A DNA stretch of 64,000 nt from Rhodospirillales bacterium 24-66-33. GTDB lineage: Bacteria > Pseudomonadota > Alphaproteobacteria > Reyranellales > Reyranellaceae. The stretch lies in assembly GCA_002281855.1 (NCBI GenBank), contig NCHQ01000004.1, positions 186,001 to 250,000 of the forward strand, read 5' to 3'. A program made the position numbers and the translations under genes. Shown here in pieces: positions 58,405-62,995 of this stretch (its first letter is position 1; every line of letters starts with the position of its first letter). The notes beneath the pieces were generated by a model. It was not told the DNA's origin, ran no database searches, and saw only the letters and a program-made list of their open reading frames with translations.

Positions 58405-58481
58405 GCGCCCGTAGCTCAACTGGATAGAGCATCTGACTACGAATCAGAAGGCTGGAGGTTCGACTCCTTCCGGGCGCGCCA
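58405..58481 (+). tRNA. tRNA-Arg(ACG)
   Basis: This 77-nt tRNA includes an encoded CCA. The acceptor stem GCGCCCG pairs with CGGGCGC, the D-loop is AGCTCAACTGGATAGAGC, the anticodon stem is TCTGA/TCAGA with loop CTACGAA (anticodon ACG, normally read as ICG), and the T-arm is GGAGGTTCGACTCC. Its 3' end is repeated at 60924-60954, marking it as the attachment site of an integrated islet. Confidence 0.97.
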
Positions 58482-58490
58482 TTTCTCCCT
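58460..58490 (+). repeat. Left attachment repeat (attL) inside tRNA-Arg
   Basis: A 31-bp segment from the T-arm through CCA and ATTTCTCCCT matches 60924-60954 at 29 of 31 positions. The mismatches are at the 7th base (C/G) and the 16th base (C/T). Confidence 0.9.
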
Positions 58491-58811
58491 CAGCCATCCG
58501 TTCCAAGCGGGCCAGTGTTTCGACGCTGCGTTCCGGCTGTGGGCAAGGCGGAGAAGACCGAGCGGGTTGTCTAACATCCTAGGCTAACAGGTTGAATTCC
58601 GTTAGACTCTTTCCTCTTTCTGCTGCTCCTCGGCATCGTGGGCGGTGTTCGGGGCTGCAGGAAACAATAAAAACGCGCCCACTCCAGTCGAGTGCAGCCC
58701 CAGGCCGCCGCCACCCGGTTCGCCCCGAACGTCGTTCGGTCCGGTGATATTCGTATTTTCAGATAGTACCCACTATATATGCGGGAATCCCTGTCGTAGA
58801 ATCTGAATACC
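58482..58811 (+). other. Non-coding left end of the islet with three palindromes and a likely promoter
   Basis: No convincing gene is present. GTCTAAC/GTTAGAC arms lie at 58569-58575 and 58601-58607; a perfect GGGGCTGCA/TGCAGCCCC pair at 58651-58659 and 58693-58701; CCGAAC/GTTCGG at 58725-58739. TATATA (58774-58779) and TAGAAT (58797-58802) are possible -10 elements for the operon, without strong -35 hexamers. The palindromes could be integrase arm sites, operators or a structured leader RNA. Confidence 0.5.
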
Positions 58812-59648
58812 GTGTCCGCCGCCAGCCCCTCTGGACTGCCCAGCTTTGAACGTCCGCCTGTTACGGAAGTCGTTCTCTCATTGCAGTTTGATATGCTCAG
58901 TGAGCTGAAGAACGCTCACATCGGATATCTGTGGTCGCGCTTCAGGGATCGCTATCCCAAAGTTCAAGAGCAACCGTCCCTCGAGCCGTCCTTTGAGACC
59001 TTCGGCACGCCGCCCATGGCGCAGCAGCCGTCATTTAGGTTTGAACAGTTCATCGGCGTGCCGGCGACTCGATATTGGTTTGAGACGGCTGACGACACCG
59101 GACTCTGCCAAGTCCAAAACGATCGGATCATTCACAATTGGCGGAAACGTGAGGGCGACTACCCTCGGTATGAATATGTTCGAGCCGAACTTGAGAAAGA
59201 CCTCAACACCTTCGAGGAGTTTCTGGTCGCAGAAGACCTAGGATCGCTTCGATTCAACCAAATCGAAGTTTCCTACATCAATACTATCGACCTGCCGGGT
59301 ACCGACAACCCGCACGGCGCGGTGGAGCAGGTTATCTCGACTTGGACCCGTCTGGATGGGGTGGGTCGCGATCTGGAGGATATTGCGTTTCGAGCAAGAT
59401 TTCTCATGAGCAAGGACGGTGTTCCCAACGCTCGGTTGCATGTTAGCCTAGCGCCAGCCCTCGAGACGACAACACTGAATCGTGTGGTCAGACTGGACAT
59501 GACTTATCGGGGTAAACCCGAATCAAACGACCGGAGTTCTGCAATGAAGATGCTGGACGAAGGCCGGGCCGCCATCGTCGTAGCATTCGCAGATATGACA
59601 ACCCCCGAAATGCATAATCACTGGGGAAGAACCGATGTTCAGAGATAA
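58812..59648 (+). CDS. TIGR04255-like protein of unknown function
   Basis: This 278-residue protein opens with the TIGR04255 pattern LPSFERPPVTEVVLSLQFDML, continues FRDRYPKVQEQPSLEP and RYWFETADDTGLCQVQNDRIIHNWRK, and has FNQIEVSYINTID in the middle. The family is sporadically distributed and has no known function. No signal peptide or membrane helix is seen. The start is a GTG at 58812 without a clear ribosome-binding site. It overlaps the next gene by 14 nt. Codon use is more A/T-tolerant than in flanking genes, consistent with transfer. Confidence 0.8.
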   Translation: MSAASPSGLPSFERPPVTEVVLSLQFDMLSELKNAHIGYLWSRFRDRYPKVQEQPSLEPSFETFGTPPMAQQPSFRFEQFIGVPATRYWFETADDTGLCQVQNDRIIHNWRKREGDYPRYEYVRAELEKDLNTFEEFLVAEDLGSLRFNQIEVSYINTIDLPGTDNPHGAVEQVISTWTRLDGVGRDLEDIAFRARFLMSKDGVPNARLHVSLAPALETTTLNRVVRLDMTYRGKPESNDRSSAMKMLDEGRAAIVVAFADMTTPEMHNHWGRTDVQR

Positions 59649-60090
59649 TGCCGCGAGAAACGCTACAACCGATGGTTCCAGTGATTTCTCGCAGAGCGCT
59701 TTCGCTAAGTTTCGGGAGGCTCACAGTGCCGCTGTCCAGCCGAAGTGGCAGGCGTCGGTGCTGGCTAAGGTGACGGAGTTGCTAAATCTCCGCCAAGGGT
59801 GGGACGGTTACAATGCGCCGGCCCTAAAGCACGACGCCGCGATGTTTGCGATGGTGATTCTGCAAAACGTCATGAAGCAGAGCACGCCTGAGCCGTCGGT
59901 GGTTCCTTCGTCTACGGGCGGAGTACAGCTGGAATGGCATTTGAATCGCATCGATCTGGAAATCCATGTGCTTGCGCCATACCAGGGCGAGATTTGGTGG
60001 ACCGATCATGCCACTGGCGCTGAGAGTACCGTCTCACTTGGGAAGGACCTCTCAGTCTTGGATGAGCCGATCAAGAGAATGTCACTCTAG
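59635..60090 (+). CDS. Islet protein 2: small uncharacterised protein with WDGY and GGVQLEWH motifs
   Basis: This 151-residue soluble protein has three recognisable parts: a helical N-terminus, the segment LLNLRQGWDGYNAPALKHDA, and a beta-rich C-terminus with VVPSSTGGVQLEWHLNRID and LEIHVLAPYQGEIWW. I recall similar small proteins beside TIGR04255 genes but cannot name a family. It overlaps the upstream gene by 14 nt and precedes the third gene by 14 nt, so all three are likely made together. Confidence 0.7.
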   Translation: MFRDNAARNATTDGSSDFSQSAFAKFREAHSAAVQPKWQASVLAKVTELLNLRQGWDGYNAPALKHDAAMFAMVILQNVMKQSTPEPSVVPSSTGGVQLEWHLNRIDLEIHVLAPYQGEIWWTDHATGAESTVSLGKDLSVLDEPIKRMSL

Positions 60091-60104
60091 GCGCGACAGT
60101 ACCC

Positions 60105-60476
60105 ATGAGCGCAGCGGACGATGGATCGATCAACGACGAATGGTCGTTGCTTAGGCGAGTCCATCCAACGCAAATCGTCCCCAGCGAAGGCGGCGGAGAA
60201 CCGAGGGTCTCGTCAGCGGCTTTCAAAGATGTGTCCATGTCGGTTGATGTCGAAGAGAGTTTGGCCGCCCAAGGCAAAGACTGGAAATTTTCTCTTCAAA
60301 GTCATCCTAGCCACTCGCTTGTAAAGCTGATTGCTGCAATACCGCGTTCACTCAATCAGGCCGTTGTTGCAGTGCCGATTGTTGACAACCCGGCACATGC
60401 TGAGGTGCGGGGCGACAAACCCGGGTCAGTTGCGCGCGCTCTGAGTAAGGCGGCTGCGTGGGTCCATCGCCGGTGA
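60105..60476 (+). CDS. Islet protein 3: small uncharacterised protein
   Basis: This 123-residue protein has INDEWSLLRRVHPTQIVP near the start, SSAAFKDVSMSVDVEESLAAQGKDW in the middle, and IVDNPAHAEVRGDKPGSVARALSKAAAWV at the end. No catalytic motif, signal peptide or membrane helix is obvious. It is the third gene of the islet operon. The conserved-looking blocks suggest a real family, but I do not recognise its function. Confidence 0.68.
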   Translation: MSAADDGSINDEWSLLRRVHPTQIVPSEGGGEPRVSSAAFKDVSMSVDVEESLAAQGKDWKFSLQSHPSHSLVKLIAAIPRSLNQAVVAVPIVDNPAHAEVRGDKPGSVARALSKAAAWVHRR

Positions 60477-60480
60477 CGAA

Positions 60481-60597
60481 GTGACAGAGCGCCTGCCGCA
60501 AAGGGTGCAGGCCAAGCTCGGGCTTGTAGATGGCGGTGCCTGCAAGCTACGCGTCATCATAGAAGCGACCCGCCATCAAAGCCGATGGGGCGGCTGA
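60481..60597 (+). CDS. Possible small ORF at the end of the islet operon
   Basis: A GTG 4 nt after the third gene opens 38 codons (MTERLPQRVQAKLGLVDGGA...). There is no clear ribosome-binding site or family match; it may be a remnant of a longer gene or chance. Confidence 0.2.
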   Translation: MTERLPQRVQAKLGLVDGGACKLRVIIEATRHQSRWGG

Positions 60598-60735
60598 GGA
60601 CTTCGAACACCCCTGCGTTGGAACCCATTCGGTGCGCTTAGGGAGTCTGTGGGTCGATCGTTGCATGCGGTAACTTTACATGGGGCAACCAAGTAGGAGG
60701 CCTAACAGGCCGCCGAAACGTCGAAGGCCTGGCGA

Positions 60736-60771
60736 ACAAACGAAATAAACAAAATAAACGAAACAAACGAA
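60736..60771 (+). repeat. Four tandem 9-bp repeats near attR
   Basis: ACAAACGAA, ATAAACAAA, ATAAACGAA and ACAAACGAA follow one another without spacers. The run is A-rich on the plus strand and lies 153 bp inside the right attachment repeat. Confidence 0.8.
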
Positions 60772-60867
60772 GTAGAGGTCGCACCCCCTGAAACGGGATG
60801 TCCTGCCACTCGATATTGTGCCGCTTCCGATCCGCGCCTCAGGATCTGGTTGATTTCCGGGGTCTTG

Positions 60868-60890
60868 CCTCCCCGAACGGGAGGGTTTTT
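60868..60890 (+). terminator. Intrinsic terminator at the right end of the islet
   Basis: CCTCCC (60868-60873), loop CGAAC-type, GGGAGG (60879-60884), then GTTTTT. It probably closes the islet transcript before attR. Confidence 0.7.
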
Positions 60891-60923
60891 GGGCCTTCCG
60901 GCGCGGCCGCGTTCCCGGGCGGG

Positions 60924-60954
60924 TCGACTGCTTCCGGGTGCGCCATTTCTCCCT
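60924..60954 (+). repeat. Right attachment repeat (attR)
   Basis: This is a 31-bp copy of the tRNA-Arg 3' end and following bases, with two mismatches from 58460-58490. Upstream of it the tRNA is not preserved, so this copy is not a functional gene. Confidence 0.88.
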
Positions 60955-61013: not shown

Positions 61014-62138
61014 ATGCAAAGGACTTTCGTCAACCTGATGCGCGGAGATCCCGCGCCCCGCTTCACGGCCGCGACGGCGAGCAATCCACGCTACATCTTC
61101 GACACGGTGGCGGGGCGCTACGTCGTGCTCTGCTTCTTCGTGTCGGGCAGCACGCCGGGCGGTGCCGCGGCGCTCGGGGTGGTGGCGGCCAACCGGCACC
61201 GGTTCGACGACGAGCGCCTGTGCTTCTTCGGCGTAACCGTCGACCCGAAGGATCGTGAGAGCGGCCGCGTTCAGCAGAGCCTGCCGGGCGTGCGCCACTT
61301 CTGGGACTTCGACGGCAGCGTCTGCCGTCTCTATGGCGCGGTGCCGCGCGAGACCGGGCCGGACGGGCAGGTTGGTGCGCGGCAGTTCTGGGTGATGCTC
61401 GACCCGACCCTGCGGGTGCTCGAGGTCATTCCGTTCAAGCCGGGCGGGGCGGAGCATGCCGAGCTGTTCGCCCGTCTCGACGCGCTGCCGCCGCCGCACC
61501 TGCATGCCGGCCAGCCCGTGCAGGCGCCGGTGCTGGTGCTGCCCCACGTCTTCGAGCCCGACTTCTGCCGCAGCCTGATCGGCCTGCACGAGGCGGATGG
61601 CGGCCGCGACACCGGCTTCATGAGCGACGTCAGCGGCAAGACCGTCGAGCTGAAAGATCCCGCGCGCAAGCGTCGGCGCGACTTCATCGTCGAGGACGAG
61701 AGCGTCATCCTGGCGGCGCAGCAGCGCATCAGGCGACGGATCGTGCCGGAAATCGCCCGCCTGTACTTCTTCGATGCCACGCGCATCGAGCGCTATCTCG
61801 TCGGCTGCTACACGGCGGAGGAGGGCGGCCACTTCGCGCCCCATCGCGACAACACGACCAGGGGCACCGCGCATCGGCGCTTCGCGGTGTCGATCAACCT
61901 CAACGACGCGTTCGACGGTGGCGAGGTGAGCTTCCCCGAATACGGGCCGCGCGGTTTCAAGCCGCCGGTGGGCGGTGCGGTGGTCTTCTCCTGCTCGCTG
62001 ATGCATGCGGTCTCGGCCGTGTCGCGCGGCCGGCGCTATGCCTTCCTGCCGTTCCTCTACGACGAGGCGGCGGCGAAGATCAGGGTGGCCAACAACCAGT
62101 TCCTCGATCCCTCGGTCGGCGCGTACGAGGGCGGCTGA
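61014..62138 (+). CDS. Redoxin-like domain fused to a 2OG-Fe(II) oxygenase
   Basis: This is a 374-residue two-domain protein. Residues 1-155 have an AhpC/TSA-type thioredoxin fold ([52 protein letters not shown]). The segment [14 protein letters not shown] has no cysteine where a peroxidatic Cys is expected, so it is unlikely to be an active peroxiredoxin. Residues 170-374 form a prolyl-4-hydroxylase-like oxygenase with Fe ligands His277 and Asp279 (APHRDN) and His331, and Arg341 for 2-oxoglutarate. The target is unknown. It begins 60 nt after the islet's right repeat. Confidence 0.83.
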
Positions 62139-62233: not shown

Positions 62234-62995
62234 ATGGCTTCCCCATCCCGCGTCATCCTCATCACCGGCGCCTCCTCGGGCATCGGCGCCGCAGCCGCCC
62301 GCGCCCTGGCGGCGCCCGATACGGCGATCGCCCTGCATGCTCGGCGCAACCGGGCCGGCCTGGAACGGGTCGCGGGATTCGTCACCGGTGCGGGCGCGCA
62401 GACGCTCCTCCTCGAAGGCGACCTCGGCGAGTCCGGCACGGCGGCGCGCCTCGTCGAGGAGACTGTGACGGCCTTCGGCCATCTCGACGTCATCGTCAGC
62501 AATGCCGGCTTCGCGAACCGCGCGCAGGTGGGCGAGCTCGATCGTGCGGCCTGGGATGCCAGCCAGAATGCGATGACGGCTGCCTTCTTCGAACTGGCGA
62601 CTGCCGCCAAGCCGTGGCTCGTCAAGGCCGGGGCGGCCGGGCGGCTGGTCGGCGTCTCCTCCTTCGTGGCGCATGCCTTCGCCCGCGGTCTCATCACCTT
62701 CCCGGCGTCGGCCGCGGCCAAGGCGGGCATGGAGGCTTTCTCCAAGGCCTTTGCGGTCGATATCGCCGGCTCGGGCGCCACGGTGAACTGTGTGGCGCCG
62801 GGTTTCATCGAAAAGGACCCGGATGCCCATGTCGCCGTGCCGCGTGCCGGGATGGAGAAGGTGGCCCAGTCGATTCCGATGGGCCGTTACGGCAAGCCGG
62901 CGGAAGTGGCGGCCCTGATCGCCTTCCTCTGCTCCCCGGCGGCAAGCTACATCACCGGCCAGACGCTGCACGTGAACGGCGGCGTCACCCTCTAG
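62234..62995 (+). CDS. Short-chain dehydrogenase/reductase
   Basis: This 253-residue SDR has the cofactor motif [15 protein letters not shown] (residues 10-24), NAG in [16 protein letters not shown], and a C-terminal GQTLHVNGG. The usual catalytic YxxxK is replaced: the segment [21 protein letters not shown] keeps the lysine but shows Phe-Pro-Ala-Ser where Tyr is expected, and [10 protein letters not shown] holds the serine. Activity may therefore be altered. Substrate unknown. Confidence 0.82.

Follow-up and report, generated by a model that had tools for sequence, protein, structure and literature searches.

A 2.5-kb stretch of DNA lying directly behind the tRNA-Arg(ACG) gene of Rhodospirillales bacterium 24-66-33 raised two questions, namely, how it came to be there and what it carries. 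The window, i.e., the whole stretch of DNA analyzed here, comprised 64,000 nucleotides of contig NCHQ01000004.1 (positions 186,001 to 250,000), and all coordinates refer to it unless a genome is named. The first reading of this DNA, made from the letters alone (hereafter, the sequence-only reading), had described the locus as an islet without an integrase, inserted at the tRNA gene, and had left its cargo without a name; it is the cargo that proved to be the more interesting part of the islet.

Boundaries of the Islet

The following features delimit the islet and its surroundings.

58405..58481, + strand: tRNA-Arg(ACG), the insertion target, rebuilt by the left junction (ARAGORN; Rfam RF00005)
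58454..58490, + strand: attL, the tRNA 3' end and 9 further bases (33/37 relative to attR, its sole other genomic copy)
60702..60805, + strand: dispersed repeat built around a 9-bp tandem core and belonging to the islet right end
60806..60917, + strand: islet-specific right end, also found in six congeners, in islets whose cargo differs (terminator-like hairpin at 60868-60884)
60918..60954, + strand: attR, the displaced tRNA 3' end (33/37 relative to attL; junction and downstream gene as in congeners G034 and G028)
61014..62138, + strand: flanking gene outside the islet, a fusion of AhpC/TSA and 2OG-Fe(II) oxygenase (Pfam; present in some congeners only)
62234..62995, + strand: SDR-like gene marking the conserved right border of the hotspot (preceded by variable DNA in 11 congeners)

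The last 22 nt of the tRNA gene and 9 flanking bases (58460-58490) had been said to recur at 60924-60954, which proved correct with 29 of 31 positions identical, and the repeat could be extended without gaps to 58454-58490 and 60918-60954 (33 of 37), with attR carrying mismatches in the tRNA part. The scattering of this repeat over many unrelated places in the genome, named in the sequence-only reading as an observation that would speak against insertion, was also looked for: the 23-base att core, with up to three mismatches allowed, was found at two places only in the whole 6.12-Mb assembly, attL and attR, and the reversed control gave 0 matches. The lower G+C content noticed between the repeats was likewise real, amounting to 56.5% for the islet overall (53-58% inside) versus approximately 69-70% in the flanks on both sides.

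The right end of the islet consists of two parts. The repeat at 60702-60805 is a unit of about 95 bp with the core ACGAAAYAA, of which the window genome contains several dozen copies (e.g., C1:14891, C39:56174, and C2:125779) and which also occurs in several congeners; the core pattern gave 93 matches on both strands of the window genome, often two to three per copy, and 0 in the reversed control. The adjoining segment 60806-60917 was confined to the tRNA-Arg(ACG) locus among the matches listed, whereas 60702-60805 was dispersed genome-wide. It should be noted that a structured RNA at the right end was rejected, as folding was no better than that of shuffled sequences (z 0.18) and the tRNA was the sole Rfam match.

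Empty and Filled Sites in Congeners

A match to tRNA-Arg(ACG), mostly over the whole gene, was obtained in each of the 65 same-genus assemblies, and the locus was compared in 18 other congener assemblies. In 11 of these 18 loci, the tRNA was followed by 1.3 to 12 kb of DNA that was largely dissimilar and then by the conserved SDR-like gene (window 62190 on); in others, the stretch taken did not extend as far as this gene. A second, partial tRNA copy was present downstream in several loci. The tRNA of G017 adjoined DNA that in G008 is separated from the tRNA by a 2.4-kb islet plus a partial tRNA copy (5.1 kb of matching sequence, 94.5%), and the tRNA of G033 adjoined DNA that in G061 is likewise set apart from it, by an islet of 5.1 kb plus a partial tRNA copy (matching over 1.2 kb, 96%). 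These are attB versus attL/attR pairs at tRNA-Arg(ACG), and they reveal nested accretion. As for the empty site that the sequence-only reading had proposed to look for in relatives, the exact junction of 58490 with 60955 was absent from all congener assemblies examined, and what was recovered were the empty and filled states of sister islets at the same tRNA.

The segment 60806-60917 together with the partial tRNA was conserved in G034, G028, G026, and G008, and also occurred in G030 and G065, where the att sequence was decayed or missing. The cargo to the left of this shared right end varied among the congener islets, with G026 and G034 having a part in common. Since the right end is missing from the empty site of G017, it belongs to the inserted DNA in G008, and its origin as host DNA was thereby ruled out for that genome. 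Directly to the left of the shared right end in G034, G026, and G028 (L073, L067, and L068), a C-terminal fragment of the AhpC/TSA and 2OG-Fe(II) oxygenase fusion was found, which is the trace of an earlier rearrangement.

The sister islet of G008 (L078 14200-15733) encoded an HTH protein, an M78/IrrE-like peptidase, and a DUF4411 protein, some of them with weak PADLOC matches (RmrA, capP). Other islets at the same tRNA carried an S8 peptidase (G035; L079 3333-5090) and an AMP-binding/thioesterase protein (G061; L069 10794-13562); consequently, the cargo of this hotspot is not solely related to defense.

Partial tRNA copies can also arise by routes other than site-specific insertion, and the 31-bp repeat could in principle be a chance match or a plain partial duplication of the tRNA. 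This explanation is very improbable, given that the repeat is unique genome-wide, that the G+C content drops between its two copies, and that an integrase-bearing island occupies the same tRNA in a congener (see below); the two empty/filled pairs in effect refute chance.

Integrases and the Mobility of the Islets

In the complete genome G016, tRNA-Arg(ACG) and a partial copy of 50 bp enclosed a 17.7-kb island (G016:C1:1421479-1439291; L170, L171). Just inside its attR, the island encodes a P4-type integrase (Arm-DNA-bind_3, 2e-14; Phage_integrase, 1e-6), and it also carries a serine recombinase, type I restriction-modification genes, SIR2, and HerA. An arm-domain fragment of a P4-type integrase was found in the 0.87-kb islet of G030, and a decayed integrase of this type in G021, beside a copy of the tRNA-Arg 3' end. 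Thus, the G016 island and the integrase remnants of G030 and G021 identify tRNA-Arg(ACG) as an integrase target and a defense hotspot; in this genus, it is a recurrent landing site for P4-type islands and for small islets accreting next to one another. Site-specific insertion of islets takes place at this tRNA in congeners, as supported by the two empty/filled pairs, the right end common to different cargoes, and the integrase-bearing island of G016. The islet of the window resembles the P4-type (Arm-DNA-bind_3/Phage_integrase) defense islands in its target, which is used by such an island in G016 and retains the remnant of one in G030, but it differs in having no integrase, and the right end of the G016 island differs from the approximately 112-bp right end of the window-type islets.

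In accordance with the sequence-only reading, a search of the islet and its vicinity for PF00589, the catalytic domain of tyrosine integrases, and for the P4-type arm domain gave no match. Integrases of the P4 type occur commonly in this genus, with three in the window genome. The search for a resident integrase with a matching att core, suggested in that reading, gave a negative result: no tRNA and no att-like copy was found within approximately 7 kb of any of the three, and no third att core was present in the whole assembly, so that there is no sign of a resident helper acting on this core, and this candidate was rejected. These data bear on the view that the islet is a satellite for which another element still supplies a P4-type integrase in trans. 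The intact att repeats, the conservation of the right end (about 112 bp) despite different cargo, and the abundance of such integrases in the genus and in this genome agree with it; however, besides the absence of a further att core, the mismatches in the tRNA part of attR and the restriction of the cassette to a single one of the same-genus genomes searched make it rather improbable.

Elements that are flanked by att sites, lack an integrase, and lie in tandem with others that have one have been described under the terms CIME (cis-mobilizable element) and accretion (PMC5704250), and tandem accretion has a precedent in the ssrA islands of Dehalococcoides (PMC3146451). The islet of the window is similar to CIMEs and to tRNA/tmRNA accretion in that it has attL and attR as direct repeats that take in the tRNA 3' end, lacks genes for integration or transfer, lies beside other elements in the same target, and belongs to a group with variable cargo; it differs in its very small size (2.5 kb), and its mobility is putative. 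Of the two possibilities raised initially, a satellite or a decayed island, neither was singled out, as the data fit movement in trans and loss of the integrase alike, and an integrase-less CIME-like element is favored.

Genes of the Islet

The three-gene operon reported between the repeats is indeed there. Its genes, the only ones of the islet, are co-oriented and intact and span 58812-60476, with A and B overlapping by 14 nt; no convincing gene was found at 60477-60701.

58812..59648, + strand: gene A, TIGR04255 protein of 278 aa with a predicted tandem TBP-like fold (NCBIfam 4e-24, full length)
59635..60090, + strand: gene B, "WDG" protein of 151 aa (C-terminal third of PADLOC PDC-M32A, E 1e-10; profile-profile P 3e-13)
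60105..60476, + strand: gene C, protein of 123 aa with a weakly ART-like predicted fold, probable relative of PDC-M32B (profile-profile 94.9%, P 4e-8)

The product of gene A is a full-length member of its family, matching positions 2-252 of the 252 positions of the NCBIfam profile TIGR04255.1 with 85.8 bits (curated cut-off 30). The family is designated "sporadic" in NCBIfam, and no mention, function, operon, or structure was found for it in the literature searched. Homologues of gene A were rare (7 of 385 genomes of the class), and neither the gene nor the cassette was found in the 36 other same-genus genomes searched. The structural model (pLDDT 84) showed a strand-helix-strands-helix arrangement present in two copies. 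In the Foldseek comparison, the top 20 PDB matches were all TATA-binding proteins (best E 7e-5, probability 0.96-1.00), 18 of them at E < 0.001, with a low global TM score of 0.24-0.31 of the query. Gene A is therefore predicted to have a tandem TBP-like fold, a statement made at the level of the fold that does not imply DNA binding. The PYL- and START-type matches further down the list represent the same broad fold class.

Relationship to PDC-M32

PDC-M32 is a candidate system, the occurrence of which in a prophage has been reported (PMC12429752). The PADLOC HMM of PDC-M32A matched gene B with its C-terminal third, and the complete protein was not found in the islet, where gene B corresponds to its C-terminal part only. 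Across 142 genomes of the class, the same HMM detected no complete M32A, and its sole match was gene B of the window cassette. The M32A/M32B pairs recognized by HMM were plasmid-borne and came from Rhizobium, Rhodococcus, and Sinomonas. Profile-profile comparison related gene B to the M32A C-terminus with 98% and gene C to M32B, whereas the M32B HMM itself gave no match to gene C; gene A was unrelated to the M32A N-terminus (0.4%). Consequently, the cassette appears as a split relative of PDC-M32 in which the first module has been exchanged: gene B is homologous to the M32A C-terminal domain and gene C probably to M32B, and the order is the same, but there are three genes instead of two, and the unrelated TIGR04255 protein takes the place of the N-terminal part of M32A of approximately 250 aa. 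The cassette thus looks like a split, module-swapped relative of a system that is itself a candidate only.

The model of gene C (pLDDT 95) gave weak PDB matches led by ART-type proteins (AvrPphF ORF2 and KptA; E 0.14 or worse), and a putative RNA 2'-phosphotransferase was among its viral matches. The fold of gene C is therefore described as weakly ART-like, these matches being not significant. In the alignment of gene C, R17 and H98 were invariant and would suit an active site, which is offered as a lead; the alignments made for structure prediction leave out the locus from the plasmid collection. A match of gene C to AbiEi was weak (E 0.005, 29 aa) and was taken as chance. On a Streptomyces europaeiscabiei plasmid (L138 3986-6010), a stand-alone WDG-domain protein was found, followed by a weakly PDC-M64B-like protein and one with a nuclease-related domain. 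Several candidate systems may have the WDG domain in common.

Distribution of the Operon

Collections were searched for gene A with an alignment of three homologues. Two smaller co-oriented genes followed gene A in all loci examined, which belonged to other Alphaproteobacteria, Phycisphaerae, Acidimicrobiia, Solibacteraceae, Bryobacterales, Gammaproteobacteria, Planctomycetaceae, and Kribbella. The cassette was also found on a plasmid of Mycobacterium paragordonae, adjoining mobF, and on one contig of a viral catalogue; genes A and B had no match in the phage collection. By BLAST, B was recognizable in 12 and C in 11 of the 17 distinct loci, the remaining places being occupied by genes of similar size that were too divergent. 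The neighbors of the cassette elsewhere were mostly housekeeping genes, and only four PADLOC families, with one ORF each, were recorded among 89 neighboring ORFs; a defense-island context outside the window genome was thus unsupported.

The mostly housekeeping neighbors count in favor of another explanation, in which the islet would be what is left of a larger island, now fixed, whose integrase was deleted, and the cassette would be an ordinary cargo without a role in defense. The integrase fragments and decayed integrases of G030 and G021 at the same tRNA and the segment 60477-60701 devoid of a convincing gene point in the same direction. We nevertheless regard this explanation as unlikely, although the strongest of the competing ones, because the operon is intact and keeps its order across phyla, shares modules with the defense candidate PDC-M32, and lies in a hotspot that holds known defense systems.

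Origin and Possible Role of the Islet

The explanation that best accounts for the data, to which we assign a probability of roughly 0.6, is that 58482-60954 is an integrase-less, CIME-like islet in a defense hotspot and that its cargo is a split, module-swapped relative of PDC-M32, putatively a defense or toxin-antitoxin-like unit. The islet would have entered the 3' end of tRNA-Arg(ACG) via site-specific recombination, by the same route as the congener islets; such an insertion would rebuild the tRNA on the left and leave the displaced tRNA 3' end on the right as attR. The right end of about 112 bp common to the sister islets would then have been kept, with the integrase either lost or acting in trans. 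Insertion is favored by the unique repeat, the G+C step, the absence of the right end from the empty site of G017, and the integrase remnant of G030. The exact empty site that was not found, the different right end of G016, and the ART matches of gene C below significance speak against the explanation as a whole.

As for the cargo, several observations argue for a role in defense: the hotspot houses genes for type I restriction-modification, SIR2, and HerA in G016 and the HTH, M78-peptidase, and DUF4411 genes in G008; the order A-B-C holds in different phyla and also on a plasmid; gene B and probably gene C are homologues of the PDC-M32A/B modules; and the distribution is sporadic. The mostly housekeeping neighbors and the lack of a phage record with the cassette argue against it. 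Judging from these comparisons, A-B-C would be a phage- or plasmid-defense unit or a toxin-antitoxin-like one, in which A may sense or target, B may link or regulate, and C may act as an enzyme-like effector. More tentatively, and with less than an even chance in our estimation, A-B-C may be a phylum-spanning immune system composed of a tandem TBP-like protein, a WDG adaptor, and an ART-like effector, which together with PDC-M32 would form a superfamily with a swapped first, probably target-recognizing, module and with B and C kept; the TBP-like gene A would possibly serve as a DNA-binding saddle.

The tRNA-Arg(ACG) hotspot offers a tractable case in which islets with a common short right end exchange small cargoes, and the position of these islets beside islands with restriction-modification and SIR2/HerA genes illustrates how defense genes can travel without an integrase of their own. 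The cassette, in turn, makes the "sporadic" TIGR04255 family a testable three-gene system, tied to a PADLOC candidate by two shared modules.
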